A stretch of DNA of 26,806 nt from Verrucomicrobiota bacterium (GTDB lineage Bacteria > Verrucomicrobiota > Verrucomicrobiae > Opitutales > CG1-02-43-26): the NCBI GenBank assembly GCA_013289195.1, contig JABDAI010000014.1, positions 1-26,806 of the forward strand. The letters run 5' to 3'. A model generated the notes under the pieces. The model did not search any database, was not told the origin of the DNA, and saw nothing but the letters and a program-made list of their open reading frames with translations. Below are positions 5,931 to 25,001 of this stretch, in pieces; position 1 is the stretch's first letter, and the number at the start of each line of letters is the position of its first letter. The position numbers and the translations under genes were made by a program.

Positions 5931-5976
5931 ATATTTCCTTTCTTTAAGTTTAATTAAATGCTCCTATTATTCAATA

Positions 5977-6004: not shown

Positions 6005-6193
6005 ACTTAAAAAAATACTACTATTATCACAACAAATTTATAATAGTAAACTTAAATAATAACTAAATTATTAAAATTTATCTTTCTTTTTAAATTCTTA
6101 AAATCCTCTTAAAATCGATATTGAAATTCCTTATTATTTTTATTAAATTAAATTTATACCCTCACTTCATTCTGCAAAGTTCAATCTAGACCC

Positions 6194-7174: not shown

Positions 7175-7204
7175 GGAGAAAACTTTGTTAGCCTCATAAT
7201 TACT

Positions 7205-8368: not shown

Positions 8369-8419
8369 TAAGTATCTTGGAATCTGTCAAATTAACGTTT
8401 ATTAATTTTCCGATTTCGG

Positions 8420-10012
8420 CTAGCTCGAATCGCTGTCGCTGACTCGCAAATTATTTTTGTTTTCAGAAGTTTTTGGATGAGCATCATAAGTTGTCGTTAC
8501 CTCAAGATTCCCCAATGGTCCCATTTCCACTAAGCCATAAAGAATGTTATCCGTAACACCAAACCATTTTTTACATTCTTTTGAAAATTTTTCTGATTCC
8601 TCTCCTGCGGAACTCCACAGCTGCTCCACATAAAATAAAATTAATGCGATTGGAGAAAGTATAATTGAATAAGCAAAGTAAATTGCAATTTGATGACATA
8701 ATGCCATATTATGTTCATTGTCTCTTATAAAATTCTCGAGACCTTTAATACCTCTGGCCATTCTATCCATCTCTTCAATTTCAATTGCACAATTCATTAT
8801 CCTATCTAAATTTTTCAAATTTTGGTCACCTTCCTCTGCTTTTTCTGATTTTAATATCGCACGCAATGATTCTATCGCCTCTGTAAAAGCTATTCCCCCA
8901 AGTCGAATCCATTGTTGTATGCCTTTAAAGTCTCTAATGGCTTTTGCTTCCTGTTCTTTCCTTAATGGTTCGGCCGGATTGTTAATCCTTATACCATATC
9001 TTAATATAACTTGCTGTAGACTTTGATACTGTTTTAGCTTTGATGGCAGAGTTTCAAGATCTATTGCTTCTTGCGTTGTTAGAATAACCCTTTCCTTAAT
9101 TTTGTTTTCCAAAACTTTTATTGTCTTATCAGTTTCTTCTATCTGCTTACTAATGTCTTCGAGATCGATACTTAAAGCGACTTCTTGAAGAACTGATGTT
9201 AACTCCTTTTGCTTTACTTGTCCCGCATCTTTTGCTTTCTTTAATTTTGCTTCTGCTGCTGCGAGACTTCCGGCACACATCTGTACTGCTGGGGTTTGTG
9301 GTTCTTTTTCTATAGCTTCCAAAGGCCGTTTATTTGCAATACTTTCGGCTGCCCGTAACGCTTTCGTTGCTACCCAAACTTCATCATTAGCTATTATAAC
9401 TTCCCTTATAGCTGCTTTATTATCTGCAATAGCTTTCTGTAACTGTTCTACAACTAGATTTTCAACATATCCAGTTTGCTGTAATATCTTTCTTGCCCTT
9501 TTGCTGAAATCAATCCCCTTCTTCAAATCTTCCAATTGAAGGCGAACTTGTTTTAGCTCCTTTACTATTTCACTAAGATCATCAAGATCAACTGGGTCGA
9601 CTTTAGCCAGTTTAATGACTGCGTCAAGCGCCTCACTTTCGATGCTTAAAGTAGCCAGACCACGCTTATCCATTTCATTTCTAACCTTTTCACTATATTC
9701 TTTTTCTTTCGCATTCAACTCATTCAATTTAAGCTCCACTGCTTGTCGATTATTTAAGTTCACACCGAACATCAACTGAGCTCCTCCTGCTCCGGTTAAA
9801 TGACTTCCTTGTAACCAGGTATGTAAAGTGCGTAGCTGTTTGTCGTGAAGTACTGTCACTTTCCTCGATTCTTCTTTTGTCTTAAATTGCGCAACCTGAC
9901 CCTCAAGAGTGTCCAATTGCCTGTTAATTTCTTCAGATTTACCTTTATCTAAGACTGGCTTATAAACTCCTTGCGTTTCTTGGTTGACTGTTTTTTTTTG
10001 TGGAAATTCCAT
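8420..10012 (-). CDS. Coiled-coil membrane-anchored protein CC1 (unknown family)
   Basis: This 530-residue protein has no signal peptide. The N-terminus has the family's Y-K-P block (17-19), then Q-L-x-x-L-E-G-Q. Residues 85-430 are almost wholly charged helical heptad-type sequence, with A-N-D-E-V-W (208-213) and R-Y-G-I-R-I-N-N-P (338-346). G-L-E-N-F-I-R-D-N-E (424-433) precedes Cys439 and a single membrane segment at about 440-466, then a 60-residue tail ending S-D-S-D-S-S. These blocks recur in CC4 to CC7. It converges on rtcB, with only 51 bases between. Its promoter-like element is at 10066-10094, and its Shine-Dalgarno (AGAAG) is weak. It is probably a membrane-inserted, mostly cytosolic or host-exposed rod. 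Function is unknown. Confidence 0.85.
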   Translation of the reverse strand: MEFPQKKTVNQETQGVYKPVLDKGKSEEINRQLDTLEGQVAQFKTKEESRKVTVLHDKQLRTLHTWLQGSHLTGAGGAQLMFGVNLNNRQAVELKLNELNAKEKEYSEKVRNEMDKRGLATLSIESEALDAVIKLAKVDPVDLDDLSEIVKELKQVRLQLEDLKKGIDFSKRARKILQQTGYVENLVVEQLQKAIADNKAAIREVIIANDEVWVATKALRAAESIANKRPLEAIEKEPQTPAVQMCAGSLAAAEAKLKKAKDAGQVKQKELTSVLQEVALSIDLEDISKQIEETDKTIKVLENKIKERVILTTQEAIDLETLPSKLKQYQSLQQVILRYGIRINNPAEPLRKEQEAKAIRDFKGIQQWIRLGGIAFTEAIESLRAILKSEKAEEGDQNLKNLDRIMNCAIEIEEMDRMARGIKGLENFIRDNEHNMALCHQIAIYFAYSIILSPIALILFYVEQLWSSAGEESEKFSKECKKWFGVTDNILYGLVEMGPLGNLEVTTTYDAHPKTSENKNNLRVSDSDSS

Positions 10013-10065
10013 AATTTTTCTTCTTTTACAAAAACTAAATTTTATAAGTTAATAATTAATTAAAT

Positions 10066-10094
10066 ATAAAACAACATTGAATAAAATTCAAATT
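10066..10094 (-). promoter_or_regulatory. CC1 promoter-like element
   Basis: On the minus strand AATTTG (10089-10094) is followed after exactly 17 bp by TTTTAT and then the TTAATTAATT box. The layout matches the elements before CC2, CC4, CC6 and CC7. The start codon is about 53 bases downstream. Confidence 0.55.
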
Positions 10095-10123
10095 TCACAA
10101 TTTTTTAAAAATAAAATATTAAC

Positions 10124-10242
10124 GTACAAAAAATATAATCAATAAAGTCATGGCAGCGCAAAAAGACCTCATCGATATAATCGGTGAATTCCACCCATTC
10201 CTAGTAAAAATGGCCGATGGTCATGAACCTGCTGAGGATTGA
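10124..10242 (+). pseudogene. rtcB 3'-end fragment 1 (duplication scar)
   Basis: The last 30 codons match the end of intact RtcB (residues 358-387) in frame, through H-E-P-A-E-D and the same TGA. Only three residues differ (E to A, V to I, I to F), yet many third codon positions differ (for example GAT-CTT-ATT against GAC-CTC-ATC). That pattern implies the source copy evolved under protein-level selection before it was truncated. Resemblance fades left of about 10124. There is no plausible start signal, so I call it a remnant. It separates CC1 from CC2, just as intact rtcB borders CC1. Confidence 0.85.
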
Positions 10243-10260
10243 TAAAATTAAATCCTCGAT

Positions 10261-11376
10261 CTATTTAAGCTTCTCTTCGTCCTCGATTATTGGTCTAAAA
10301 AGATTCTCGGATGGTATACCTATGCTAATTTGTATAGTTTCTCCCGTTCCGCTTATTGTTTTTTGCAGCAATTTTAGGCTCGCAGTTATATTTCCTATTA
10401 TTTCCTCAAGCTCAGCCAAAATGCCCTTGCCTTGCAAGTTTTCCAACGTTTCTATACTTTCAGTTACCACTTTTTGTACAGTTAAATTCTCAGGTCTATT
10501 TTCTGTTACGCCTTCTGCAATTGGTCCCTGGCTTGACGGAATATTTTGTTCTACTCTCGCTTTAAGAGACTGTAATGCAAGAAGATTTGCATTGTCTTCT
10601 GCTAATTGCTGTTGATTAACTTCTTTATTCTCTTGAGCACCCGCTTTTAATTCATTAATTTTATTTTCTAGTTCTTTAATTCCTTCATTAATTTCATCAA
10701 GTGTAGGAACAACTTTACTCACTACACTAATTGCATCTTGAACCTGCTGTGCTGTTTGTATTGCTTTACTTCGAGCTTCTATATCTTCAGGTGAATTGAT
10801 TGCTGTTTCTGCAGCTCTTTGGCAGAGTTCAATACTATTTTCAAGATTGTTTATTGAATCCTGAATGATCGAAGCTTCAAAAAATTGGACTGTCTTCCCA
10901 CCTTCTTTAATCACTTTTTCCAATGAAGACAGATCCTTCATAGCTTTTTTTAATTCCACGTCTATTTGTTCTTTCTGCTTTCTTCGATCTTTAACTGCCT
11001 GAATGTCTTCTAATTTCATATTAGCATACTTCGACTTTTCCGCATCTTTTTTCGCAAGTTTCAGATTCATTTCAATTGCTGCTTTCGAGAAGTTTTCTTG
11101 CTCCTCGAGATGTTTTTCTGCGAACTTAAATCCATGTTTAAGCACAGATACTTTAGTTTGCGCATTATTCAAAAGCGTAGCCCATTCAGTAACATTCTGT
11201 AAAGTGCTTTGCTTTATTGCGTCCTTTGTATCGGAAGGCTTGCTTGTCCGTTCTTCTACTGTCCTTTGCGAATCTGAAAAACTCGCAACACCTTCTTTTT
11301 TTTCAACTGCTTCTGAAGGTCTCACCGTTGAAGGGATCGGAATCCCTTTACCAGAATCTATACGTGATTTATCCAT
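10261..11376 (-). CDS. Divergent coiled-coil protein CC2 without membrane segment
   Basis: The product has 371 residues and a strong GGAG site before the ATG. It is almost entirely charged, helical sequence from about residue 55 on. It lacks the R-Y-x-x-R-I-N-N-P block and the C-terminal membrane segment of its neighbours. A central part, V-S-K-V-V-P-T-L-D-E-I-N-E-G-I-K-E-L-E, resembles V-S-K-H-V-S-T-P-A-E-I-E-K-R-I-K-T-L-E in CC3, so it is probably a shortened or divergent member of the family. It has the same promoter layout (11422-11450) and is bordered by rtcB scars on both sides, like CC1. It begins M-D-K-S, as does the small protein at 5727-5930. It would be soluble; a partner of the anchored members is a possibility only. 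Confidence 0.75.
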   Translation of the reverse strand: MDKSRIDSGKGIPIPSTVRPSEAVEKKEGVASFSDSQRTVEERTSKPSDTKDAIKQSTLQNVTEWATLLNNAQTKVSVLKHGFKFAEKHLEEQENFSKAAIEMNLKLAKKDAEKSKYANMKLEDIQAVKDRRKQKEQIDVELKKAMKDLSSLEKVIKEGGKTVQFFEASIIQDSINNLENSIELCQRAAETAINSPEDIEARSKAIQTAQQVQDAISVVSKVVPTLDEINEGIKELENKINELKAGAQENKEVNQQQLAEDNANLLALQSLKARVEQNIPSSQGPIAEGVTENRPENLTVQKVVTESIETLENLQGKGILAELEEIIGNITASLKLLQKTISGTGETIQISIGIPSENLFRPIIEDEEKLK

Positions 11377-11421
11377 AATATCTCCTTTTTTAAAATTAAA
11401 ATTATATTTAATTAATTAAAT

Positions 11422-11450
11422 ATAATACATAATTTATTAAAAAACAAATT
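11422..11450 (-). promoter_or_regulatory. CC2 promoter-like element
   Basis: AATTTG (11445-11450, minus strand), 17 bp, TATTAT, then ATTTAATTAATT. It has the same spacing as at CC4 and CC6, and the start codon is about 45 bases downstream. Confidence 0.6.
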
Positions 11451-11502
11451 ATTCGATTTCTTAATAACACTAAACTTGAATATAAAAAAATTTTAATTTA
11501 AA

Positions 11503-11707
11503 CATACATTAAACAAAGAAAGACTTTTGGAGAAAAATATCCCAAAGAACACGGCATAACGCTAATAAGCACCGGAATCGACGAAATGCCTGTATTCTAC
11601 AAAGACATCAATAAGATCATGGAAGCGCAAAAAGAGCTGATTGACATCTGTAGTGAATTCCATTCCTGGTAAAAATAACCGAAGGCAACGAACCTATTGA
11701 GAATTGA
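11503..11707 (+). pseudogene. rtcB 3'-end fragment 2 (duplication scar)
   Basis: This stretch corresponds to RtcB residues of about 320-387. Long identical runs remain, for example GGAATCGACGAAATGCCTG, and the final TGATAA is kept. The frame is broken by a four-base insertion (AAAGAAAGAC for AAAGAC) and by in-frame stops near the end (TGGTAAAAATAA). It differs from intact rtcB and from fragment 1 at different positions, so it is an independent, older or more decayed copy. It lies between CC2 and CC3. Confidence 0.85.
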
Positions 11708-11725
11708 TAAGCTTTCCCCTTTCCC

Positions 11726-11940
11726 TTATTGCTCGGTATCGCTAGGACTGTCTTCTTCCCCGCTAAAACTGTCTTTTTTCTGCCCCTCTTCCGGCTCACT
11801 CAATGGATATTCGTAGTCAGAACCGCCAGACCTTGGACTTTCTTCGATGTCGGAAACATGTGCAACTTTATTTTTGTTTCTCGAAGGGGGTAGATCATGA
11901 TTTGTTGGCTCTACGTCAAGAGTCTCTACCGTTCACACCT
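11726..11940 (-). pseudogene. Frameshifted acidic C-terminal tail of CC3
   Basis: The annotated CC3 frame ends at 11916, but the +1 frame is open from about 11935 to a TAA at 11726-11728, about 70 codons. It encodes a hydrophilic, acidic tail containing H-V-S-D-I-E-E-S-P, S-G-G-S-D-Y-E-Y-P-L-S-E-P-E-E-G and S-G-E-E-D-S-P-S-D-T-E-Q at the end. This composition and the S-D-Y-E motif resemble the tails of CC5 (out of frame) and CC6 (S-E-Y-D-E), so it is probably the original end of the protein, lost through a one-base insertion or equivalent near 11930. It has no start of its own. Confidence 0.65.
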
Positions 11941-13610
11941 ATGAAATCGATAGCATCCTCTCCTGTAAGTCCTAAAACATAATTGAACATCTTATTAGAA
12001 GATACTCGGATAGCTTCCGCCTCTTCACCTTGACTTTCATAATACCATTGTAGTGTAATCTTTACCATTTCTACGACAAAAAATGTAATTATTCTGATTC
12101 CCCATTTATCCCAATCATTACTATTTCGCCAGGCTTGCAATTCTTGTACATAGTTCTGATTTTTTGCTTTAAACTCATTCAAACCCTCCTCTACGGCCAA
12201 CATTGCATCAATGGTTCGTAACTTTACTATGCATTTATCTAATGTCTCCATTGCATCGAGTGCTTGAGCGGTTGTTTCCTGAACGGATAAAGCGCTAGTT
12301 TCCAGATTCTTTGCCTTTTCATGCATTTGATGAAATAACTTACTAGCAGGCCCATCTTCTGCAATAGCAGCGCGTAAAGATTCAGCTCGCTGCTGTATCC
12401 TTTCAGATTCTGGGTTTTGCCCTGTGATCCCATATTCTTCTAAAGTCGATTGAAGCTTCCTTAATGAGAGAAGAGTACTTTTGCCCTGAGCATCCTGGGG
12501 TTCCTCTTCTAATGTTTTAATTCTTTTTTCAATTTCAGCAGGTGTAGAAACATGCTTACTGACGTTTTGAAGGGCCTTCTCAACTTCTATCATTGCTGCG
12601 CTTACAGCTTTTTTAGCGTTTTGCTTTTTCTCGGGAGAAGCCTTAATGAGACTTACTACAGCCTGCCTGTATTCATCTACCTGTTGACTAAACTCACTTA
12701 CTGCTCTCTTTGCTTTTCTTTGCTCCTCTTCTGGCCTCAACTCTTCAGCATCTTTCAACTCTTTAGCAGCTTGCTGATAGGCACTTTCTGCCTTTGTCTC
12801 TGCTTCTTTCAATGACTTAAGTCCCTTAAGCAAATCAACATTCATATACACAGCTTGCTTAGATTCGTTAATTGCCTTAAGTTCGTTTTGATATTCAAGC
12901 TTGGCCTCGTCATAAGCCTTTTTTTTTTCATTTTTCTCCTTTACTTTGGTTTCCAAATCAACATATGTCTCCTCCAATTCAACTTGCTGTAATAATCTCG
13001 ATGCCCGGTCACTTATCTTAATTCCTTGGTTTAAATCCGCCAATTGATCTTGAAAGCTTTTCAAATCCTCTACCGAAGTGGCTAAATCTAGTACCATTTC
13101 TTTAAACGGAAGACTCTCTGGAGGTAATTTAGAAGATTTAAAATGACTTGCCAAAGCACTAATCTTTTGGCGAAGGATTTCTACGTCGTTTATTGTTTGC
13201 AATTTTTGAATTTGTTCTTTTGATCTATCGGAAACATTAGGCGCGTTTTCGAATGCAACCAGTTTCCGTCTAACATCTTCAGCTTTTTCTTTTTCTAGCT
13301 TATTCAGTCTATCTAATTCGGCTTGTCGTTGTATTTTGCTACTTAAGTCTACACCGAAATCAATTTCTACTTTACTTTTTTGTAGTCCTTGGAATTCTAA
13401 CTGTCCTTGGCCTTGTTCCCATTTTTTTAAACTTTCCTGCATTTCTGGAGTCATTTTCTCTTTGCCTGATTCTTTTTCTTCTATTTTCCTTGTTCCTTTG
13501 TTCGTCGCAAATTGCGCCTCAATGGTCGCAAATTTCTGATCAATGAGTCTCGATGTTTTTTGGTCTATCTTTGGTTTATAGACTGATCTTTCTGGTTTTG
13601 CTCTTTCCAT
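11916..13610 (-). CDS. Coiled-coil membrane-associated protein CC3
   Basis: This 564-residue protein has a GAGG site before its ATG. It opens with Y-K-P-K-I-D-Q-K-T (12-20) and has a W-E-Q-G-Q-G-Q-L-E block and G-V-D-L-S-S-K-I-Q-R-Q-A-E-L, both shared with CC5 and CC7. Heptad-like charged helix runs to about residue 500, including L-A-D-L-N-Q-G-I-K-I-S-D-R-A-S-R-L-L-Q-Q. A weaker hydrophobic stretch (about 505-523, I-I-T-F-F-V-V-E-M-V) is the only candidate membrane segment, and its C-terminal third differs from other members. The frame stops at 11916, but a frameshifted tail continues to 11726. Upstream, a 34-bp stretch (13634-13667) is identical to one before CC5. It lacks the AATTTG element. 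Confidence 0.82.
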   Translation of the reverse strand: MERAKPERSVYKPKIDQKTSRLIDQKFATIEAQFATNKGTRKIEEKESGKEKMTPEMQESLKKWEQGQGQLEFQGLQKSKVEIDFGVDLSSKIQRQAELDRLNKLEKEKAEDVRRKLVAFENAPNVSDRSKEQIQKLQTINDVEILRQKISALASHFKSSKLPPESLPFKEMVLDLATSVEDLKSFQDQLADLNQGIKISDRASRLLQQVELEETYVDLETKVKEKNEKKKAYDEAKLEYQNELKAINESKQAVYMNVDLLKGLKSLKEAETKAESAYQQAAKELKDAEELRPEEEQRKAKRAVSEFSQQVDEYRQAVVSLIKASPEKKQNAKKAVSAAMIEVEKALQNVSKHVSTPAEIEKRIKTLEEEPQDAQGKSTLLSLRKLQSTLEEYGITGQNPESERIQQRAESLRAAIAEDGPASKLFHQMHEKAKNLETSALSVQETTAQALDAMETLDKCIVKLRTIDAMLAVEEGLNEFKAKNQNYVQELQAWRNSNDWDKWGIRIITFFVVEMVKITLQWYYESQGEEAEAIRVSSNKMFNYVLGLTGEDAIDFIGVNGRDS

Positions 13611-13633
13611 AATTTCCTCTTTTTTAAAATTAT

Positions 13634-13667
13634 ATATTGTATTAAATTAATTCTACACTCGATTTGA
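13634..13667. repeat. 34-bp upstream repeat, copy before CC3
   Basis: This is identical over 34 bp to 17666-17699 before CC5 and sits at nearly the same distance from the start codon. On the minus strand it contains TCGAGTGTAGAATTAATTT and AATACAATAT, a possible start-proximal promoter portion. Here it also encodes the last residues of the transposase stub. It marks the edge of a segment shared by the CC3 and CC5 loci. Confidence 0.75.
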
Positions 13668-13920
13668 CATCAATCATTGCGAATTCAACAACTGCCTTTT
13701 CGTCTTCAGGTTCAACTCGATTTTTTAAAATAGGTTTTTTTTGACTGATTTCTTGAAGCGCCGCTTCGCCTCCTGTTTCATAAAGCTCTTTAAAGCGATA
13801 GAAACTATCTCGCGAATAACCCCTGATTTTACAGGCTTGAGAAACATTCCCAAGTTGTTTCGCTAGCTCTAATATTCCTAGTTTATTTTTGATGATTTTG
13901 TCATTTACATTTATATTCAT
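13642..13920 (-). pseudogene. IS481-type transposase N-terminal stub
   Basis: The frame gives 92 residues after an AAGGA site. The sequence [13 protein letters not shown], then [14 protein letters not shown] and [10 protein letters not shown], is the typical helix-turn-helix start of IS481-type transposases. Family members run to about 300-350 residues with an integrase core (DDE). Here the resemblance stops near residue 80 (V-V-E-F-A), and the last residues are encoded by the repeat shared with CC5. The catalytic domain is absent, so the element cannot transpose by itself. It might still be translated, as a short DNA-binding protein. A TGTCAGATTAAG-type end sequence near 13946 may be part of the element's end. 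Confidence 0.8.
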
Positions 13921-14025
13921 AACAGTCCTTTTTTATTTATTTATTGGATCTGTCAGATTAAGTAAAGTTTATTACACTTTAATCATATAATAATTTTATA
14001 ATCTATTAATTTATATACCATTTAT

Positions 14026-15678
14026 TTAAATATCAAATTCACCTTCTTCTCCTATTACTATGGGTTTGAGTCTATTCATCGTTTGTTCATCTATAGAAGG
14101 CAGATTATTAAACGAACTTTTAAGTTCATCTGATATATTTTTTGCATTTTCTAAATTCTCTTTCAAATTGTAGAGCCAATAAATTACTAAAGGAAAAAGT
14201 ACAATTGTCAATGCACCTACAATGGCAAGTGCATAACAAAGCATCATAGTATTAGTATTATCATTTTGAAAACTTTCAAGACCTTCAATACCTCTAGATA
14301 TTTTATCTATCTCTTCAAGTTCAGCTGCAGTCTCCATTACTTCAAGCAAAGTTGGGTTGTCTATACCTGAAGATTTTTTAACTGGCGCGTTTGGGCCTTG
14401 ATTTCTCATTTTTTCTGCTATATCACGCAATGATTTAATCTCGTCGCTATTGATAAAAGAAGCCCCCCAGGTTCGAAGCGACTCTTTTACTCTATTAAAG
14501 TCCTCAATAACCTTGTTTCCTTCCTTTTGTCTCACTACTTCGCTATCAGTAGTAATAGGATTGTTAATCCTTGCACTATATCTCAATAAAACTTGCTCGA
14601 GATTTTGATAATGTTCAAGTTGCGATTCCGCTCTTTCTAGTTCATTTAATTGATCTGCTCCTAGTGCCTCTTTACTAACTTGGGCCTGTGCTATTATTTG
14701 CTGATTCCTTTCTAGTTCTCTACGAATCAAATCAGGAGAAATATTTGTAGCAATCTCTTTCAGAGCTGCAGTCACCTCTTTTTGCCTGGCTTCCGCTGTA
14801 TTTTTTGCTAGCCCTGCTGCATGTTTTGCTTTATCCAAATCACTTATAGCATAATTGATCATTTTCCTTCCTATTGAAGTCGAAGCATTCGCTTCAGCTT
14901 CTTTCAATGCCTTTGTTTTGGCCAAAATTTCATCATTAGCTTGAATGAGACTATTCACAGCCTTTTGATAATTTTCTCTAGCTGTCTTCAATTTTACTGA
15001 AGCTTTTTCAGGAATTTCTCCCGCTTCTTGTAATATTTCCCTTGCTTTATTGCTAAGCTCAATTCCTCGTTCCAAATCCTCTAATTCAAGTGCTACGTCT
15101 TTTAAATTCCCCGCGGATATAGAGAGTTTTTTAAAGTCTTCCAGCTTATCGGCTAATACTACAATTTGCTGATATCCTGAAGAATCTAAGTTATTGCTGT
15201 TACATAAATTTAATAACCGTGTTACCGCTTGCAATGGCGTTTCTGGGTGCTGACTCTTCATCGCTTGCCATTCAGGATTTTTATCAAGATCTGGAATTAG
15301 ATTGGGGTTCGAAAGCAATCTATTTTTTAGCTCATTCAGTCCACGTTTAACTTTTTTAACGTCTTTTGCGTCTTCAGATAGTTGTTCTTTCAAGGGGTCC
15401 ACTTTACTCTGCCGTGCTGTTAAGTTACTTAAGCCACCAGAGAATAATAGTTTACCCTGATTATCCCTCCCTCCTTCTACATTGGTGTACAAAAAGTTTC
15501 GATCCTCATTACTCAGTTTCAATTTTTCTTCTGGTTTAGGTTTTATTTGTTCGATCTCTCTTGTGTTGTCTTTTGTCTGCAATTTTCCTTTGATGACACT
15601 TAATTGTTGTTCATAGCTCTTAAATGCTTTTTGATTTATTTTTGTTTTATAGCTTACTATTGATCTTTCGTGTCGCAT
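14026..15678 (-). CDS. Coiled-coil membrane-anchored protein CC4
   Basis: The product has 550 residues. It starts with Y-K-T-K-I-N-Q-K-A-F and carries the family blocks in order: L-E-D-L-E-R-G-I-E-L-S-N-K-A-R-E-I-L-Q-E-A, I-Q-A-N-D-E-I-L-A-K-T-K-A-L-K-E-A-E-A, L-L-R-Y-S-A-R-I-N-N-P, and G-I-E-G-L-E-S-F-Q-N-D-N. A Cys (L-C-Y-A) precedes one membrane segment at about 480-503. The 47-residue tail ends G-E-E-G-E-F-D-I. No signal peptide is present. The gene lies 87 bases downstream of CC5 and has its own promoter-like element right after the CC5 stop. The ribosome binding site is weak. The heptad region suggests oligomers. The family is unknown. Confidence 0.85.
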   Translation of the reverse strand: MRHERSIVSYKTKINQKAFKSYEQQLSVIKGKLQTKDNTREIEQIKPKPEEKLKLSNEDRNFLYTNVEGGRDNQGKLLFSGGLSNLTARQSKVDPLKEQLSEDAKDVKKVKRGLNELKNRLLSNPNLIPDLDKNPEWQAMKSQHPETPLQAVTRLLNLCNSNNLDSSGYQQIVVLADKLEDFKKLSISAGNLKDVALELEDLERGIELSNKAREILQEAGEIPEKASVKLKTARENYQKAVNSLIQANDEILAKTKALKEAEANASTSIGRKMINYAISDLDKAKHAAGLAKNTAEARQKEVTAALKEIATNISPDLIRRELERNQQIIAQAQVSKEALGADQLNELERAESQLEHYQNLEQVLLRYSARINNPITTDSEVVRQKEGNKVIEDFNRVKESLRTWGASFINSDEIKSLRDIAEKMRNQGPNAPVKKSSGIDNPTLLEVMETAAELEEIDKISRGIEGLESFQNDNTNTMMLCYALAIVGALTIVLFPLVIYWLYNLKENLENAKNISDELKSSFNNLPSIDEQTMNRLKPIVIGEEGEFDI

Positions 15679-15735
15679 TTTATCTATATTATTTCATCCA
15701 TTTTTAAAACTAAAATTATATTAAATTAATTAAAG

Positions 15736-15764
15736 ATAATATCAATTCTTTTAAAAATCAAATT
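15736..15764 (-). promoter_or_regulatory. CC4 promoter-like element
   Basis: AATTTG (15759-15764, minus strand), 17 bp, TATTAT, then CTTTAATTAATTTAA. The stretch from -10 onward is the same as at CC6 for over 15 bases. It lies just past the CC5 stop codon, so CC4 may be transcribed separately. Confidence 0.6.
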
Positions 15765-15765
15765 A

Positions 15766-17634
15766 TTAATAATTTTTAAACGAGAAATAAATAAAAAATA
15801 ATAAAAAATTAATATAAATAGATCGAAAAGTCATTTTTTTCTGAAAACGGTTCTGTCTCATAATACTATATTCCTTCCTCACCAAAGATTCTATCAGGTT
15901 TTTCTTCATAGTCAGAATATGAGGTGATTCATCTACTACTATTTTCTGTTGATCTGGAGTATCAAGTTTGTTTTGACCTTCTTTCAAAGTCTTATTCATC
16001 TTTAAGAACCAAGCTTTCAGTTCGCCTAATGCTCTATCTACTGGCGCATTGTCTATTGATGCTATTTCTACCGGCCCCTTTTCGTCTGGCAATCCTTTTA
16101 CTGGCAATAGTTCCAATTTCACATAAGACACCAAGTAAAATAACCCTGCAATTAAAGCCAAAGGAATACCAATACCTGTAAGTGCCGACCACATTGCAAG
16201 TTTACCAAAAAATGCCATATTTTCCTCAATGTCTCTTTTAAACATTTCAAGGGCTACCACCCCTCTATAGGTTCTCTCTATTTTTTCAAGTCGTTTTGTA
16301 GCCTCCATTAATTCATGTAAATTATTTTGATTTATTTTTACCGGTTCAATCATATCTTCAGGCTGTTGTTCTATAAGTTCAGCTGCGTTTGGTATTTCTT
16401 GCACAGTTTTAATCAATGATGTAATCTCATCGGTAATTGGTCCCCAGGTTTGAACCCAATCTCTCATTGCTTGAAATGCCATCACCGCTTCTGATTCTTC
16501 CTTTTTTCGTGTCTCTGATGACGGATTATCAATTCTCTCGCTATGTCTTAAGAAAACCTGCTCTATACTCTCATATAATTCAAGATTTGATTGCAATGAT
16601 TCAAGTGTTTGTCCCAGTACCGATACTTGGGGCTTCGACTCTTTACCTTCTTTAAGTTCTGTTATTCTTGATCTAAGTTCTTCTATTTTTTGACCAATCT
16701 TTTCTCGATCAACATTTTTAGATATCTCTTTAAGAATTCTGCTTTGCGCCTTAAGAGCTTTTTGCACTTCATCTTTTGCCACTTCTAACTCTGCCTTTGC
16801 AATCGTTAAATCAGTTTCTACATCTTTTTCACCCTTTTCTTTTGACTTCTCAAGTCTCCGAATCCTATCATTAGCGATCATAAGCTTCTCCAAGGCTTTG
16901 CTATAAGTATCTATAGCTTCATTCAATTGATTAACATTCTTGGTCTGAATATTTTCAGCTTTCTGTAATATGGTGATTGCCTGATCACTTAACTGAATTC
17001 CTCGATTTAAATCAGCCAATTCCGCTTGAGTGTTTGCTAATGTTCTTAAGGATTGTGTGAATTCTCTTATTAAACCCTCAGACTTTGAAAGATCTTCTAC
17101 AAAAATATCGAGGGCTAGACTACTTCTAGCTAAATCCTCAAAGTACTTAAGGTCAGCCTTAAAGTCTTTCTTGTTTACAATTTTGGTCTTCAAACTTTTA
17201 ACTCTGTCTCTTTGCTCGCTTAAAGATGCACTAAGAGAATCTTTCTTCATCGCAGCAATATCAGCAGACAAAGATTCATCTAGCGCCCCTAGTTTAGTTA
17301 AAACAGCCTTTGTATTTTCTTTTTCTTGCTTATTGAGCTTTTCCAATTCAGCTTGCCGGTTTTTTCCGCTATCTAATTCCAACTGGAAATCAATTCTCAC
17401 TATTTCTTCTTTTTCTGTTTTGATTTGACCCTTTCCTCTTCCCCATTCTTCTAAACTTTTCTGTATATCTGTACTCAAAAGCTGCTTTCCATTTGGTTGA
17501 TGTTTTATTTCTCTTGATCCTTCACTTGTCGTAAGTTGTTTTCCTAGATTCTCAATTTGCTTTTTAGCAAGCTCAAATGTCTGTACTTCTATCTTTGGCT
17601 GATAGCCTGCTCCTTGTGGTTTTGCCCTATCCAT
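15766..17634 (-). CDS. Coiled-coil membrane-anchored protein CC5, frameshifted tail
   Basis: This 622-residue protein has a strong GGAGAG site. Y-Q-P-K-I-E-V (12-18), W-G-R-G-K-G-Q-I, L-A-D-L-N-R-G-I-Q-L-S-D-Q-A, L-M-I-A-N-D-R-I, H-S-E-R-I-D-N-P and G-V-V-A-L-E-M-F-K-R-D-I-E-E-N-M are all in family order. A membrane segment lies at about 480-505; here the usual Cys is replaced (M-A-F-F-G). The natural tail seems to be lost. After D-E-S-P (about residue 571), a shift to another frame reads SYSDYEEKPDRIFGEEGI, while the present frame runs into an unrelated, partly hydrophobic end (F-L-L-F-F-I-Y-F-S-F). The closest relative is CC7. The 34-bp repeat lies upstream, and CapA-like is the next gene upstream. 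Confidence 0.83.
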   Translation of the reverse strand: MDRAKPQGAGYQPKIEVQTFELAKKQIENLGKQLTTSEGSREIKHQPNGKQLLSTDIQKSLEEWGRGKGQIKTEKEEIVRIDFQLELDSGKNRQAELEKLNKQEKENTKAVLTKLGALDESLSADIAAMKKDSLSASLSEQRDRVKSLKTKIVNKKDFKADLKYFEDLARSSLALDIFVEDLSKSEGLIREFTQSLRTLANTQAELADLNRGIQLSDQAITILQKAENIQTKNVNQLNEAIDTYSKALEKLMIANDRIRRLEKSKEKGEKDVETDLTIAKAELEVAKDEVQKALKAQSRILKEISKNVDREKIGQKIEELRSRITELKEGKESKPQVSVLGQTLESLQSNLELYESIEQVFLRHSERIDNPSSETRKKEESEAVMAFQAMRDWVQTWGPITDEITSLIKTVQEIPNAAELIEQQPEDMIEPVKINQNNLHELMEATKRLEKIERTYRGVVALEMFKRDIEENMAFFGKLAMWSALTGIGIPLALIAGLFYLVSYVKLELLPVKGLPDEKGPVEIASIDNAPVDRALGELKAWFLKMNKTLKEGQNKLDTPDQQKIVVDESPHILTMKKNLIESLVRKEYSIMRQNRFQKKMTFRSIYINFLLFFIYFSFKNY

Positions 17635-17665
17635 ATATTCTCTCCTTTTTTAAAAACATATATTA

Positions 17666-17699
17666 ATATTGTATTAAATTAATTCTACACTCGATTTGA
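17666..17699. repeat. 34-bp upstream repeat, copy before CC5
   Basis: This is identical to 13634-13667 before CC3. It begins two bases beyond the stop of the CapA-like gene and ends about 30 bases before the CC5 start. It probably carries the promoter downstream half and marks a duplication boundary. Confidence 0.75.
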
Positions 17700-17701
17700 T
17701 A

Positions 17702-18697
17702 TTATTCATTCACAAAAACCTCCAAACACTTCAAACCGCTATTCCACCGGACTGCAGTGTCCAATTCCTCGCACAGCAGCTTCATCTTCTGGCCAATCCG
17801 TTCACCCGTCTCTCCCTTAGCATGACGTGCCTGAAAATTTCTTATCACCGTCGGATACAACTTCAATCCCTTTATGTGCGTTCCTTCAGTTTCGACCAAA
17901 AAAATAAAGGACTCATCATTCCTCTCATCGGAATCCACTGCATAATCATCAATAAAATCTCCTGCACTGTAAATGATAGGTCGGTTTTGGTAAATTTCCA
18001 CTCCACGAAATACGTGGCAAGAATGCCCAAAAACAATATCTGCTCCACAATCTACTAGGAAATGAGAAAAACCCACATGCTCAGGCTCTGGCCGATAACC
18101 CCAATTGGATCCCCAATGCGCCGAAACAATCAGGATATCAACATCTGCCTTAGTTCTTTTTATCAAATTCATAAGATCTCTAGAAAATTCACCTGTATTA
18201 CTTCTTTCTTCTCCTTTTGCTGAAATGGGCATATAAAAAGTCCCAGAACGCTCATTCGTAGCCTCCCAAATAGGCTCATTATCCGTTAAACCAATTCGGC
18301 ACCCACCAACCTCAAAAACTGCAGGCTTCCTAGCTTCTTCAACATCATTTCCTGCTCCTGCATAATGAATTTTCTCTTCTTTCAAAATCTCGAACATTTC
18401 AAAGAAAGCATCATATCCATAATCCAAAACATGATTATTGGCCAACGATACACAATCAATACGAGCATTTTTCAATACAGACACATTTTTCCTATCACTC
18501 CTGAAATGAAAAACCTTAGGGGTAATAGACCAAGGTTCCCCTTTATCTGAAATCACACATTCCAAATTACAAAACCGCACATCCGCGGAACGAAAAACAT
18601 CCAACGTATCTCCCCAAGGATAAGCAAACGACTGTTCTTTCAAACACTCATTCACCAATCTCCCCAACATGACGTCACCAACAAATAATAATTTCAT
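17702..18697 (-). CDS. CapA/PGA-cap family metallophosphatase-like protein
   Basis: The frame extends to a TTG at 18733, but the ATG at 18697 starts right at the family pattern, so I prefer it (331 residues). The sequence K-L-L-F-V-G-D-V-M-L-G-R opens the protein, with Asp as first metal ligand. N-L-E (about 45), S-L-A-N-N-H-V-L-D-Y-G (about 84-94), V-S-A-H-W-G (about 190-195) and D-I-V-F-G-H-S-C-H-V (about 220-229) complete the calcineurin-like metal site. CapA proteins take part in poly-gamma-glutamate or capsule synthesis in some bacteria, but many homologs are of unknown substrate. No signal peptide or anchor is seen here. No other capsule gene is near. It stands inside the coiled-coil array, possibly by rearrangement. 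Confidence 0.85.
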   Translation of the reverse strand: MKLLFVGDVMLGRLVNECLKEQSFAYPWGDTLDVFRSADVRFCNLECVISDKGEPWSITPKVFHFRSDRKNVSVLKNARIDCVSLANNHVLDYGYDAFFEMFEILKEEKIHYAGAGNDVEEARKPAVFEVGGCRIGLTDNEPIWEATNERSGTFYMPISAKGEERSNTGEFSRDLMNLIKRTKADVDILIVSAHWGSNWGYRPEPEHVGFSHFLVDCGADIVFGHSCHVFRGVEIYQNRPIIYSAGDFIDDYAVDSDERNDESFIFLVETEGTHIKGLKLYPTVIRNFQARHAKGETGERIGQKMKLLCEELDTAVRWNSGLKCLEVFVNE

Positions 18698-18798
18698 AAT
18701 ATTTTCTGCCCCATATTCTGCACTGAAAATCAAATTTCTATTAAACCATCACAATTTAAACATAATATATAATTATTAATTATTTTATTTTCTATTTA

Positions 18799-18951
18799 TT
18801 ATCTATTTTCCTTTTTTAAACTATAAATTAAATCTTTCATTCTCAGCCACCCTAGATAATAAAATCTAACTCTTTTGAAATCTTTATATAATTTCAAAAA
18901 TAATTCTGACTTCATTTCGTCATGTTTCTGGATGTCAGTGTCGTTGATCAT
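18799..18951 (-). CDS. Possible 50-aa protein downstream of CC6
   Basis: An ATG one base after the CC6 stop opens a 50-residue frame, MINDTDIQKHDEMKSELFLK and on to K-K-E-N-R. The product is charged and helical with several aromatic residues (R-F-Y-Y-L-G-W). Position would allow translational coupling to CC6, but there is no good ribosome binding site of its own. No relative is visible in the window. It may be a real small protein or chance. Confidence 0.3.
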   Translation of the reverse strand: MINDTDIQKHDEMKSELFLKLYKDFKRVRFYYLGWLRMKDLIYSLKKENR

Positions 18952-18952
18952 G

Positions 18953-20638
18953 TTATTTTTCATCTTCGTATTGACTTCCTTCATCATATTCAGAAAACTC
19001 AATATTGGGCTCGACTACTTCCTCTTCTAATTTCTTCATAGGCATCTTCATACCTTCTAACAATTTTTTTAGTTCATCCGAAGCAGATTCTGTCCCCTTC
19101 GGGCCATATGCCAAATAAGCTAATCCTGCAATTAAACCTGCCAGTGGTAGAAGAATAACTGTCCATGCAAGTAACCAGGTAACGTTATAACAATTCTGCA
19201 AAGTTGCGTCATTGTCCCTTTTAGAACTTTCAAGACCTACAATACCGCTGAACGTTTTATCTATCCCTTCAAGTGCACTTGTATCTTCCAATATTTCAAA
19301 TAAAACTTCTTCATCTTCTTCTGGACTTATTGTGGGTGTCTGCTCTTCTCTACTTTTTAGTGCTACACGCAATGAATCAATCGCCGCACTATTCATAAAA
19401 CCCTCATCCCAAAATCGAAGAGACTTTTGTACATCACGAAATTCTTTAGTTACCTTTGCTGCTTCCTCTTGCCTCAATACATCGCCCTCAACATCAATTT
19501 GATACCTTAATAAAACATTCTCTAGATCCTGATAAAGTTGAAGATTCGATTTCGCTATTGCAAGGGTTTGGGCTTCTTCCTCCTTGTCACTTGCCGGAAT
19601 GTTATTCAATCTTTCTATCTTATTTTTATTCTCTTCAATTTTCTGACGAATCTTTTCAGGGGAAATAATTAAAGCAACCTCTTTAAGAACCTTTGTCAAT
19701 GCCTCCTTTTTCTTTCTTACATCGGCTACTTTTACAGCTAAATCCTGTTCTACTCTTTTTAAAGCTTCACGTGCCTTCCTTAAAGTATCATCTCGATTTT
19801 TCTTCTCCTCAGGTTCCAAAAACCAAGCATTTGCAGCACTTTCGGCTTCCTCATATTTCTTTGTTGCTTCCCAAAGTGCATCATTAGCTTTTATAAGTTC
19901 GTCCACAGCGTCTTTATATGCTCCAACGGCTGTCCGCAATTTCTCTGGAACTGGTCTCGCTTGCAGTAATATCGCCCTTGCCTTTTGGCTGAGCTCAATT
20001 CCTCGTTCAAAATCCTCTAACTTAAGTCGAGTTTTATTTAAATTATCTGCCAAATGAGCAAGCCGCAGAGTTTGGCTGATCACACCTTCCTCACCTAATT
20101 TTACAAGTTTATCCAAATCCTCAGAACTCAAACTATCTTTATTCCTCAACGGCTCTACAATTTGCAAGACTTCAGTTGCTTTTTTCACACTGTGTGGACT
20201 TTTTCCAGCGGTATCCACAGTCGTTTGAGAGCCTTCTGTTTTCGGTTGAGCAAGTGTAGCTTCAAAACTTTTGCTTTGCTGCAACATCGCATCCAATTCA
20301 TCTTTTACCCCATTTAGTTCTTTTTTAATATCTTCTGTCAATTCTTTCTTAGATGTTCTCAGCTGGGTTAACATACTCATTTGTACTTTTCGGCTACTTA
20401 AGTCCGGGTACGAAAGACCTTCATAGCTTCCTCGTACTACGTCGTTCAAAAATCGTCGTTCATCTGGTTGCAATGCCATTTTTTGTTCCACTTCCCTTAC
20501 TTTTGCATCTCCTGCCTGAAATTGCCCAATTCTCTTTTCGATCTTATCCAAACTATTCTTTATTTGGCTTTTTTCTTCATCATTTATTACTGGCACAAAT
20601 TTTGGGGTTGATTCTTGGTATGTTCGTGGACGCTCCAT
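18953..20638 (-). CDS. Coiled-coil membrane-anchored protein CC6
   Basis: The product has 561 residues, with AAGGA upstream of the ATG. The N-terminus is more divergent (P-K-F-V-P-V-I-N-D-E-E). Family blocks are L-E-D-F-E-R-G-I-E-L-S-Q-K-A-R-A-I-L, I-K-A-N-D-A-L-W-E-A-T-K-K-Y-E-E-A-E-S, L-L-R-Y-Q-I-D-V, and G-I-V-G-L-E-S-S-K-R-D-N. A Cys (N-C-Y-N) precedes a membrane segment at about 486-511 with a central Leu-Leu-Pro-Leu. The 50-residue tail is acidic at the end (E-F-S-E-Y-D-E-G-S-Q-Y-E-D-E-K). The R-I-N-N-P block has changed to R-Y-Q-I-D-V-E-G-D. No signal peptide is present. The gene shares its promoter wording with CC4, to which it is most alike in the ANDxxW region. Confidence 0.85.
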   Translation of the reverse strand: MERPRTYQESTPKFVPVINDEEKSQIKNSLDKIEKRIGQFQAGDAKVREVEQKMALQPDERRFLNDVVRGSYEGLSYPDLSSRKVQMSMLTQLRTSKKELTEDIKKELNGVKDELDAMLQQSKSFEATLAQPKTEGSQTTVDTAGKSPHSVKKATEVLQIVEPLRNKDSLSSEDLDKLVKLGEEGVISQTLRLAHLADNLNKTRLKLEDFERGIELSQKARAILLQARPVPEKLRTAVGAYKDAVDELIKANDALWEATKKYEEAESAANAWFLEPEEKKNRDDTLRKAREALKRVEQDLAVKVADVRKKKEALTKVLKEVALIISPEKIRQKIEENKNKIERLNNIPASDKEEEAQTLAIAKSNLQLYQDLENVLLRYQIDVEGDVLRQEEAAKVTKEFRDVQKSLRFWDEGFMNSAAIDSLRVALKSREEQTPTISPEEDEEVLFEILEDTSALEGIDKTFSGIVGLESSKRDNDATLQNCYNVTWLLAWTVILLPLAGLIAGLAYLAYGPKGTESASDELKKLLEGMKMPMKKLEEEVVEPNIEFSEYDEGSQYEDEK

Positions 20639-20961
20639 ATCATTTTTTCCTTTTTTAATTTTAAATTAATTAAAGATAATATAATATTAAACAAAAATCA
20701 AATTATATATAAATTTTATATAAAAAAATAATACACTATAATTATATTTCTAAAAATATAAATCTATTAACTAAAAATATAAATCTATTAACTAAAAATA
20801 AAAAATAGAAATGCATAATAATCACAAAAAACGAATAAATCTATTGATTTTTTATATTCTATTAAAATAATTAATTTAAATGAAATAATATCAACAGAAC
20901 CCTATTTTGCGCGTCCACCCAACCATCAAAACATCAAATTAAGATAAGTCCGAATATAAAT
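20639..20961. other. Intergenic region between CC6 and CC7 with 21-bp tandem repeat
   Basis: This stretch of more than 300 bases has no credible gene. It holds the CC6 promoter-like element at 20676-20704, and two perfect copies of a 21-bp unit (AAAAATATAAATCTATTAACT) at 20752-20793 with a seven-base partial third copy. The last 90 bases before the CC7 stop are less AT-rich (TTGCGCGTCCACCC) and may be a remnant, but I could not match them to anything in the window. Confidence 0.6.
20676..20704 (-). promoter_or_regulatory. CC6 promoter-like element
   Basis: AATTTG (20699-20704, minus strand), 17 bp, TATTAT, then CTTTAATTAATTTAA, as at CC4. The start codon is about 37 bases downstream. Confidence 0.6.
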
Positions 20962-22872
20962 TCAAAACTCATCTTCACTCAAGTTTATCGTATCAGAAAT
21001 CGAACCTGTAGCCGTTCGCAGTTTTTGTTCCTCTTCTTCTTTCTTTTTCCTTGTACGCTCAACTTCAAGCTCATCCGCCATTTTTTGACCTTCTTCAAAA
21101 GTCTTAGTTATACGTGGCAACCACTTTTTAATTGGTTCTAATGCTTTGTCTACTGGCTTTTCCAATCCTCCTATTGGCACTCCTTCCAATTTCAAATTGT
21201 ACGCTGCGTAAAATAATCCTACAATTAAAATTAAAGGAATTAATACAACTGTACAAGCAAACCCTATTGCAAGCGAACGGCAAAATGCCAGATTTTCCTC
21301 AATGTCTCTCTTATACTGTTCAAGGCCCGCAACGCCCCTAAATGTTTTTTCTATTTGTTCAAGACGATTTGTAGCATCCATTAATGCAAATAAGGTTTTT
21401 TGATCTTCTATTGGTTTGTATTCCATATCTCCATATTCTTCTTTAAAGGCGGTATCGCTTTCTATTATCTTTATAGTTGCAACTAATGATTGAATCTCAT
21501 CAGTACTTGGCCCCCAGCTTCGAATCCAAGCTTCCATTCTTTTAAATGCCATAGCCACGTCTGATTCTTCTTTTTGTCTTGAGGCTTCAACCGGATTATC
21601 CATCCTCGCACCATATCGCGATAAAACTTGTTCTATATTCTCATACCGTTCAAGATTTTTTTGTAATGTTGCAATCTCTCTTGTTATAATGCCTAGTCCT
21701 TCAGTACCAACTCCAGACTTTTTTGTCTCTAGCTCACGTATTGTTAGTCTAAGTTCTTCTATATTTTTTTGAATTTTTGTACGGTCAACACCTTTAGAAA
21801 TTTCTTTAAGAATTTTACTTTGAGCCTCTTGTGCTTGCCTTCCTTCATCTTTTGCCTCTGCTAATTCTTTTTCTGCTGCTTTTAACGCATTTCTTTTATC
21901 TACTACTTTTGCATTTCGAGTTTCTTTTTCAGATTTGGTTCCTCCCCAAGCCTTTGCCTCATTTTCGGCTTCTTCTAACTCCTTATTTTTGTTCCAAACA
22001 TCATCATTAGCCGCCATAAGACGCTCTAAAGCTTTACTATAATTGGTTATAGCAACATTTAACTCAGTCACAGCTTCAACCTCAATATCTCCAGCTTTCT
22101 GTAAAATTCCCAACGCCTGGTCACTTAACTCTATTCCTTGTTTCAAGTCTGCCAATTGCACTCGAGCTTGTACCAGTTGCAATGTGGAATCTAATAGGCT
22201 CTGCGTTAATCTAATAAGATCCTTAGCATTTGGGTTCAATTGCATGCTATTAGCCAATCTCTGAACTTCTTGCAACTCCTTGATACTTAAGTTCTGGGTA
22301 TCAGAAGCTAACTTTTGAACCAAGACCTTTGCGTTTCCTAAGCCTTCAAGTTGTTCCTGTATTTTGCCATATGCATCAAACAATTTTTGATGACCTTCTG
22401 CAATATCTGCTGTAGCTTCTGAAGCAGTCGCTTCACTCATGGTCATTAAGTTCTTTTGAACTGAAATCATATCTTTGCGTAAATTAGCTGAAGCTTTCGT
22501 CATTGTTTCAATTTCATCAGTCAATTTTTCTTCCAAGGCTTTCAGTTCTCGTTGAACATTTTCCGTGCATTCTTTTTCATGTTTACCCAATCTGTTCAAT
22601 TCATTTTGTCGTTGTGTTTGGCTATCTAATGCAATACCAAACATCAACTTTCCTCCTTCTAGTTCTCCCTTTGCCCATTGATTTACAAGTTGCCTGCTAC
22701 TTTCATTCAATCCACTTTCAGGTGGGAATTGCTGAATTGCCCTTATTGACCCATCTTTCGTTGAAAATGCGCCCTCAATTTTATTTAGTTGCCTCCGAAC
22801 ATCCTGAAATGTTGTTTCTTCTATTGGCGTATAGGGTGTTGAACCTATTGAACTTTTTGTTACAGATTCCAT
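20962..22872 (-). CDS. Coiled-coil membrane-anchored protein CC7
   Basis: This is the longest member, 636 residues, with AAGGA before its ATG. It opens with Y-T-P-I-E-E-T-T-F (18-26) and R-Q-L-N-K-I-E-G-A-F-S-T, then W-A-K-G-E-L-E-G-G, G-I-A-L-D-S-Q-T-Q-R-Q-N-E-L, L-A-D-L-K-Q-G-I-E-L-S-D-Q-A, L-M-A-A-N-D-D-V-W, R-Y-G-A-R-M-D-N-P and G-V-A-G-L-E-Q-Y-K-R-D-I-E-E-N. Cys (A-F-C-R) precedes a membrane segment of about 24 residues (about 535-558) broken by a Pro. A 77-residue charged tail ends S-D-T-I-N-L-S-E-D-E-F. CC5 is its nearest relative. An N-terminal insertion with several polar repeats makes it longer. Function is unknown. Confidence 0.86.
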   Translation of the reverse strand: MESVTKSSIGSTPYTPIEETTFQDVRRQLNKIEGAFSTKDGSIRAIQQFPPESGLNESSRQLVNQWAKGELEGGKLMFGIALDSQTQRQNELNRLGKHEKECTENVQRELKALEEKLTDEIETMTKASANLRKDMISVQKNLMTMSEATASEATADIAEGHQKLFDAYGKIQEQLEGLGNAKVLVQKLASDTQNLSIKELQEVQRLANSMQLNPNAKDLIRLTQSLLDSTLQLVQARVQLADLKQGIELSDQALGILQKAGDIEVEAVTELNVAITNYSKALERLMAANDDVWNKNKELEEAENEAKAWGGTKSEKETRNAKVVDKRNALKAAEKELAEAKDEGRQAQEAQSKILKEISKGVDRTKIQKNIEELRLTIRELETKKSGVGTEGLGIITREIATLQKNLERYENIEQVLSRYGARMDNPVEASRQKEESDVAMAFKRMEAWIRSWGPSTDEIQSLVATIKIIESDTAFKEEYGDMEYKPIEDQKTLFALMDATNRLEQIEKTFRGVAGLEQYKRDIEENLAFCRSLAIGFACTVVLIPLILIVGLFYAAYNLKLEGVPIGGLEKPVDKALEPIKKWLPRITKTFEEGQKMADELEVERTRKKKEEEEQKLRTATGSISDTINLSEDEF

Positions 22873-22922
22873 AATTTTCCTTTTTTCTCTATTTAAATTA
22901 AATTTAATTGCATTAATTAATT

Positions 22923-22951
22923 CTAATATTATTTAAATAAAAAAGCAAATT
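22923..22951 (-). promoter_or_regulatory. CC7 promoter-like element
   Basis: AATTTG (22946-22951, minus strand), 17 bp, TATTAG, then AATTAATTAAT. The layout matches the others, with a changed final -10 base. The start codon is about 50 bases downstream. Confidence 0.5.
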
Positions 22952-23002
22952 ATAGAAATAAACAAAATCCAATAATTACATAAAATTAAAATAAAATCAC
23001 TT

Positions 23003-24803: not shown

Positions 24804-24849
24804 TGTAATAAAAACCTCAGTCCGGAATGCTGTCCTTTGCACGTTTTAT

Positions 24850-25001
24850 AAACTTCCTTGGATTTCTAATCGTATTGGGCGAATGAATTTAGCAAGCTCC
24901 GAATTCGTTTCGTCCTGTGCGAGTTAAACTTCCTTGGATTTCTAATCGTATTGGGCGAACGAATTTAGCAAGCTCCGGATTTGTTTCGTCCTGTGCGAGT
25001 T
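24850..25001. repeat. 76-bp tandem duplication at a gene end
   Basis: Copy 1 (24850-24925) and copy 2 (24926-25001) are directly adjacent and differ at three positions. The unit is not a multiple of three, so it changes the reading frame. The right copy is coding in the 24889-25707 gene; the left copy is read out of frame and provides its new end. Confidence 0.9.

Follow-up and report, generated by a model that had tools for sequence, protein, structure and literature searches.

Five genes on the minus strand of a 26,806-nucleotide stretch of DNA (contig JABDAI010000014.1, positions 1 to 26,806; hereafter the window) make up a family of paralogs in which an ordered series of sequence blocks leads into a single C-terminal hydrophobic segment. 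These genes, designated CC1, CC4, CC5, CC6 and CC7, have a history of duplication that can be followed in the window, they have diverged fast, and they have no detectable relatives in the databases and genome sets searched. Our best reading is that the CC proteins are lineage-specific, fast-evolving, membrane-inserted helical proteins, and that they are more likely to be directed at a host than to be structural. A sequence-only reading of the same DNA had described a seven-member array of coiled-coil, membrane-anchored proteins. The open reading frames (ORFs) of CC1 to CC7 were found at the positions it gave, and five of them are full members; however, CC3 is a half-member and CC2 is very divergent and doubtful.

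CC1 (8420..10012) encodes 530 amino acids, with its hydrophobic segment at about residues 442-462 and a Ser/Asp-rich end. CC4 (14026..15678; 550 amino acids), CC6 (18953..20638; 561 amino acids) and CC7 (20962..22872; 636 amino acids) are also full members, as is CC5 (15766..17634; 622 amino acids), whose last residues are atypical in being basic and hydrophobic, not acidic. BLASTP among the CC proteins, run with SEG and composition correction, gave best-direction E values from 4.9e-92 (CC5-CC7) to 1.7e-25 (CC5-CC6) for the five. The sequence-only reading had proposed comparing pairwise alignments with those of unrelated coiled coils. All ten pairs of full members beat shuffled sequences of two kinds, with Smith-Waterman z scores of 20-68 against heptad-preserving shuffles and 14-38 against local 20-residue shuffles (60 of each), and composition-corrected BLASTP agrees. 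Unrelated control proteins encoded by the 3595, 4933 and 24889 genes of the window gave z scores of -1.5 to 2.5 against the seven CC proteins. Leave-one-out profiles, in which four members were used to find the fifth, succeeded in 5/5 cases at E 7.8e-91 or better. Based on these comparisons, we regard CC1, CC4, CC5, CC6 and CC7 as true paralogs.

The shared blocks were recovered in most cases as described. Strict patterns for the GIx[LF]SxxA motif, the AND block and the GxxxLExxxxD block each matched all five full members, and CC3 has GIKISDRA for the first of these. The block written as [RH][YS]xxR[IM][ND]NP is present in that form in CC1, CC4 and CC7 (3/5) and is altered in CC6, as claimed, but CC5 has RHSERIDNP, so the pattern (RxxxRIxNP in its short form) should allow RH. 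A Y-x-P start, said to occur in most, was found in CC1, CC5, CC7 and CC3; CC6 has FVP and CC4 has YKT.

The two remaining genes, both on the minus strand, stand further off. CC3 (11916..13610; 564 amino acids) had been said to share the N-terminal half, and the family profile does recognise its first 215 residues (E 5e-31); the remaining 349 are divergent and gave no match to it (E 0.097). CC2 (10261..11376; 371 amino acids) had been called a reduced member with no membrane segment. The second part of this description stands, with no 19-residue hydropathy peak above 1.4 in CC2 or CC3, but the first is not supported as direct membership: CC2 falls outside the family profile, and its score of -5.8 bits is equalled by 31/300 heptad shuffles. 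Tested in both directions against the C-terminal half of CC3, CC2 outscored 300/300 heptad and 300/300 local shuffles (z 5.7-7.7). Against CC5 and CC7 it was reached by 0/300 heptad shuffles (z 4.5 and 4.3) and by two and one of 300 local shuffles (z 3.0 and 3.3), and its similarity to CC4 was not above chance in the shuffle test. When the C-terminal half of CC3 was compared with CC4, no shuffle of either kind (300 each) reached its score (z 5.6 and 4.3); this did not hold for CC6. On this thin evidence, the plan of the full members may survive, much diverged, in both CC2 and the C-terminal half of CC3.

The single C-terminal membrane segment proposed by the sequence-only reading corresponds to a single 19-residue hydropathy peak of 2.1-2.8 in each of the five full members. 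The peak sits in an uncharged run of 27-36 residues that contains a proline and lacks a polar middle; CC5 shows a second, weak peak (1.42) within its atypical tail. Inspection and hydropathy likewise bear out that none of the five has a signal-peptide-like start. Conservation is highest in the hydrophobic segment (47% mean pairwise identity) and in the stretch preceding it (44%), and the region of CC7 residues 226-300 is also well conserved (40%), while the two tails (N-terminal 24%, C-terminal 22%) and region 111-225 (23%) are the least conserved parts. The net charge of the last 30 residues is -2 to -8 in CC1, CC4, CC6 and CC7. Near the 3' ends of CC3 and CC5 an acidic stretch occurs in a different frame, that of CC3 being Ser/Asp/Glu-rich and downstream of the stop, and this suggests damage at the 3' end of each gene. 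AlphaFold models were built from five or six paralogs. Those of CC7 (predicted local distance difference test score, pLDDT, 62.8; predicted template modelling score, pTM, 0.38) and CC1 (pLDDT 57.1, pTM 0.33) are nearly all helical. In both, one long helix starts ahead of the GxxxLE block and takes in the hydrophobic segment as well, in a part of the model that ranks among the least certain (pLDDT <50 for CC7 residues 512-589 and about 50 in CC1). We take the global shape of these predicted models to be no basis for inference.

The sequence-only reading knew of no described family with this plan, and it had recommended profile searches of databases and related genomes. Such searches yielded no known family and no relative with the same plan; no Pfam cut-off was passed by any of the seven proteins, and the protein, genome, viral, phage and plasmid searches returned no homolog. 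No Pfam model reached its curated cut-off, NCBIfam (scanned with CC7 alone) gave 0 families, and PADLOC gave weak matches only, to CC1, CC2 and CC5 (best 2.3e-4, CC2). PHROGs returned nothing up to E 0.01 for CC3-CC7 and a best E of 0.0086 for CC1; a match of CC2 to a head-tail adaptor (E 1.5e-4 over 49 residues) was not common to the other six. Protein-database searches with the whole of CC7, the five-row alignment and CC4 residues 350-510 found only the window's own protein; those with CC7 and the alignment scored the 7997 candidates sharing most words, so that weak relatives could escape. The alignment drew 67 stretches from genome contigs and 115 from viral contigs, and none was confirmed. 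Plasmids gave no match to CC4 as protein or, at the DNA level, to the window's first 25,000 bases, and phages gave none to CC4 as protein.

Searches of genome sets with the same alignment gave few matches. Three of six genomes matched at E 0.1 and none at 0.001; in the Chlamydiales group there were matches in 2/232 genomes at E 0.01 (best 6.7e-4), in the Verrucomicrobia group in 0/387 at E 0.001, in one order in 3/273 at E 0.001 (best 2.1e-6), in the order of another match in 1/177, already among the 3/273, and in one family in 0/4. These sets overlap, and a match in the six-genome search (G001, E 0.0034) is missing from the Chlamydiales-group search, which shows that the first look was not exhaustive. 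The family plan was absent from all four matched loci inspected (L020, L023, L054 and L055; L021, L022, L024 and L056 were left out). L020, from Chlamydiota, encodes a coiled-coil protein whose hydrophobic stretch is close to the N-terminus, and the other three presumably encode one YicC-like protein and two tetratricopeptide repeat (TPR)-like proteins. Among solved structures the alignment reached five chains at E <=1 (three designed proteins, PawS1 and prolactin; best E 0.013). Fold searches with the CC7 model gave nothing at E <=0.001, as expected from so weak a model. Among the titles and abstract openings that keywords brought up in the literature, none described such a family, although keywords cannot reveal an unnamed one. 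Rfam gave no match and no tRNA was found.

All seven CC genes lie on one strand, as described, but the run is interrupted by two other features. An IS481-like transposase N-terminal remnant (13642..13920, minus strand; 92 amino acids; 49.9 bits, E 3.1e-13, a partial match under the full-length cut-off) lies between CC3 and CC4, and a capA-like gene (PGA_cap; 17702..18733, minus strand) lies between CC5 and CC6. An intact rtcB-family gene (7205..8368, plus strand) converges on CC1. Two relics of its 3' end occur further along the plus strand. The one at 10131..10245 (codons 354-387; 87% DNA identity to the end of intact rtcB) separates the region upstream of CC1 from the end of CC2; the one at 11515..11711, which is split over two reading frames and has 82% DNA identity, separates the region upstream of CC2 from the end of CC3. 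At the amino acid level they match RtcB at 91% (34 residues) and at 73% (48 residues) followed by 53% over 15. Since the relics and their CC genes keep the convergent layout of intact rtcB and CC1, tandem duplication probably copied blocks that included rtcB and a CC gene, after which the rtcB copies eroded. The relics indicate that the array grew by such block duplication. A piece of corA at 4462-4554 (plus strand; 84% DNA identity to intact corA at 6194-7174) and the duplicated genes at 3595-4332 and 4933-5691 (minus strand; 62% amino acid identity, no hydropathy peak above 1.4) suggest that the same process operated leftward. The 3595 gene has weak matches to PG_binding_4 (E 0.054) and phrog_7338 (E 0.0046), and the 4933 gene has none. 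Two further repeats are present in the window: a 184-residue protein at 609-1163 (minus strand), with a signal-peptide-like start by eye, has a partial copy at 5-202 (minus strand; 52% over 69 residues), and the 3' part of the 24889-25707 gene recurs as a relic at 24825-24923 (minus strand; 76% over 33 residues).

The ratio of nonsynonymous to synonymous change (dN/dS) was computed by NG86 for four of the ten full-length CC pairs and for CC3-CC5 and 3595-4933. Differences at codon positions 1/2/3 were of broadly the same size, at 0.41/0.38/0.44 for CC5-CC7 (dN/dS 0.64), 0.49/0.40/0.48 for CC4-CC6 (0.81), 0.47/0.42/0.49 for CC1-CC6 (0.66) and 0.54/0.39/0.51 for CC1-CC4 (0.61). The 3595-4933 pair gave 0.20/0.19/0.21 (0.70), and CC3-CC5 gave 0.47/0.26/0.45 (0.53) over 138 N-terminal codons. 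Because biased third positions would lower dS, these ratios may be overestimates. Frames of 530-636 codons stay open at 34-43% DNA divergence between copies in their aligned parts. As judged from these patterns, the CC genes preserve their frames under weak constraint or diversifying selection. CC1 and CC2 are barely alignable beyond chance although the neighbouring rtcB relics remain so similar to RtcB, and this contrast suggests very fast change in the CC genes; gene shuffling or replacement within blocks could also explain it. We considered the rtcB relics as a neutral clock and rejected them. The first differs at 15/114 bases and at only 3/34 residues, which indicates that it coded for some time.

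A further shared feature is a TTTAATTAATT-like box (10054..22922, no strand assigned), found with <=1 mismatch within 60 nucleotides upstream of all seven CC starts. It occurs at 10054, 11407/11410, 13642, 15721/15724, 17674, 20661/20664 and 22912. At <=1 mismatch there are 21 occurrences of TTTAATTAATT in the window, compared with 6.5 (standard deviation 2.7) in 100 shuffles. The box also lies within 60 nucleotides upstream of the 3595 gene, and upstream of 0/7 other genes tested. Promoter (sigma-70) and terminator scans of 3500-23200 found sites no more frequent than in shuffles.

Neighbouring genes were compared with sampled Verrucomicrobia and Chlamydiales genome groups. The closest RtcB sequences are from a Verrucomicrobia metagenome-assembled genome (MAG) and a Phycisphaerales MAG (61% each in the best segment), with MAGs of other phyla nearly as close and Chlamydiales at 47-48%. 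The ArgH remnant, searched in the Verrucomicrobia group alone, matched 91/96 genomes at E 1e-10 (best 65%), and a DUF4254 gene matched 5/194 genomes of that group at 48-49%. The first pilin-like gene matched 133/194 Verrucomicrobia-group genomes (best E 2.3e-25; in many of them the match is confined to the N-terminal part) and 0/92 Chlamydiales-group genomes at E 1e-6, an empty answer that shows nothing by itself. CorA, searched in the Chlamydiales group alone, matched 16/92 genomes at E 1e-10 (best 43%), which weighs against Verrucomicrobiota. Our best guess is that the source is probably a member of the Verrucomicrobiota. The pilin-like gene is one of four adjacent ones at 1469-3541 (minus strand) with N-terminal methylation motifs, a type II secretion or pilus-like set; three are above the Pfam cut-off and 2077-2541 is just below. 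Two ORFs at 23003-23846 (minus strand) comprise an argF-like start (E 0.001) running into the middle of argH (E 4.6e-64), and a separate argH end. Arginine biosynthesis reads as decayed in the window. Genome decay of this kind, seen in the argF/argH remnants and in the relics of rtcB, corA and the 24889 gene, suggests host association.

With this in mind, we tentatively propose, giving it somewhat less than an even chance, that the CC proteins are exported helical tethers that insert into host membranes and diverge for partner choice; export, target and tethering are what we infer. The five full genes would be lineage-specific paralogs arising from local block duplication in the decaying genome of a probably host-associated member of the Verrucomicrobiota. 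Each protein would be mostly helical. After a short polar N-terminal tail would come helices probably arranged as a coiled coil or bundle, and the helix of the GxxxLE block would run on into a single hydrophobic segment with a proline, beyond which lies a polar tail, mildly acidic in most. The protein would exit the bacterium, the hydrophobic segment would insert into a host or vacuole membrane, and the helical rod would be displayed as a tether or docking platform, with copies diverging for different partners or to track the host. Genome decay, rapid divergence and architecture fit an effector of this kind, for which secretion itself is presumed, and a lack of detectable homologs is expected since host-interaction genes evolve fast. 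The paralogs' ordered blocks, their one strong C-terminal hydrophobic segment in 5/5 and the upstream box shared by 7/7 CC genes and the 3595 gene also count in its favour. Several observations nevertheless weigh against this proposal. The organism is placed by a few neighbour genes, and neither a secretion system nor a chaperone is evident in the window, where the four pilin-like genes are the only machinery. dN/dS is below 1 in every computed pair, position 2 is slowest in 4/4 full-length CC pairs and clearly so in CC3-CC5, and relaxed constraint would yield the same ratios. The CC7 and CC1 models are poor, worst in the membrane half, and a single C-terminal hydrophobic segment suits an ordinary bacterial inner-membrane protein equally well. 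As for the box, shuffled A+T-rich CC upstream stretches contain it in 6-23% of cases (125-451 of 2000), so it is the joint occurrence alone that stands out, and the sharing can be put down at least in part to common descent of the upstream regions.

The CC proteins might instead be scaffold or stress proteins of the bacterium's own inner membrane, with a cytoplasmic rod, the segment in the inner membrane, and homo- or hetero-oligomers. We consider this somewhat unlikely. It accords with the single hydrophobic segment and lack of a signal-peptide-like start in all five, with conservation peaking in and just before that segment, and with a window in which no secretion system is evident; but a basic cell-structure protein should be conserved more widely, whereas the genome matches are at chance level or to unrelated helical proteins (0/387 and 3/273 at E 0.001), and dN/dS of 0.61-0.81 also speaks against it. 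The same ratios would suit a local amplification that has no function at present, its duplicates under relaxed constraint and decaying towards pseudogenes, as would the atypical 3' ends of CC3 and CC5 with acidic stretches in other frames, the partial or divergent CC2 and CC3, and several gene relics nearby. This is improbable in our estimation, as five frames of 530-636 codons are still open at 34-43% DNA divergence and the hydrophobic segment and most conserved blocks are retained in 5/5. Least probable by far is an origin as phage or mobile-element proteins, for example tape-measure proteins. In BFVD a tape-measure protein ranks first among the matches to the weak model and several more follow (none at E <=0.001), and an IS481-like remnant lies within the array; however, long helices commonly give such fold matches, the PHROGs matches are confined to CC1 (0.0086) and CC2 (0.00015 over 49 residues) with nothing up to E 0.01 for CC3-CC7, viral contigs yield no relative of the alignment, phages and plasmids none of CC4, and no further phage gene was recognised in the window.

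Membership in known groups was considered in four cases. Phage tape-measure proteins resemble the CC proteins in their long helices and hydrophobic part, and they head the weak fold matches, but the CC family lacks phage context or a family match and has one C-terminal anchor and several diverged copies. Assignment to phage structural proteins was rejected, with no phage context or genome match and a CC2 PHROGs match not common to the other six. An MIT domain (PF04212) at CC5 residues 217-267 (22.5 bits, E 1.2e-4) was also rejected: the score is below the gathering cut-off of 30, only 2/7 members match at E <=10, and five of the seven have no match. Syntaxin-type SNAREs have a helical bundle and, after it, a long helix continuing into a C-terminal transmembrane segment. 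The CC proteins may share a bundle and long helix leading into a hydrophobic segment, with the helix taken from a low-confidence model, but at least 60 residues follow the segment. No SNARE-motif match rose above chance: the best related Pfam model, Sec20, appeared at E 0.45 in 1/7 proteins, and there was no SNARE among the five solved chains at E <=1.

By analogy, the chlamydial inclusion membrane (Inc) proteins are the nearest counterpart in style. They are encoded in Chlamydiae and are expected to have an N-terminal type III secretion signal and to localise to the inclusion membrane. In PMC3048545 they are described as large families without relatives beyond their phylum, with a hydrophobic anchor, coiled-coil enrichment and some gene hot spots, and their defining feature is a bilobal domain made of a pair of transmembrane helices and a loop of <30 amino acids, 40-60 residues in all. 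The CC family likewise combines a lack of relatives with a hydrophobic anchor and, if the placement is right, comes from the same superphylum. In contrast to that definition as given there, the full CC members have one single-peak uncharged run of 27-36 residues; no sequence relationship between the two was found, and membership among chlamydial Inc proteins was rejected on the same definition, the segment being single and not bilobal in 5/5. It is conceivable, though quite unlikely, that a host-associated member of the Verrucomicrobiota has independently evolved, in the CC family, an equivalent of the chlamydial Inc repertoire: diversifying, co-regulated, single-pass SNARE-like helical tethers that would be exported with no signal peptide and would enter host membranes through the proline-containing segment. 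Even if not host-directed, the array clearly shows an orphan family multiplying amid surrounding genome decay. If host-directed, it would represent a new effector-type family in a phylum with little-known intracellular members, and a convergence on the coiled-coil and anchor plan of the Inc proteins.

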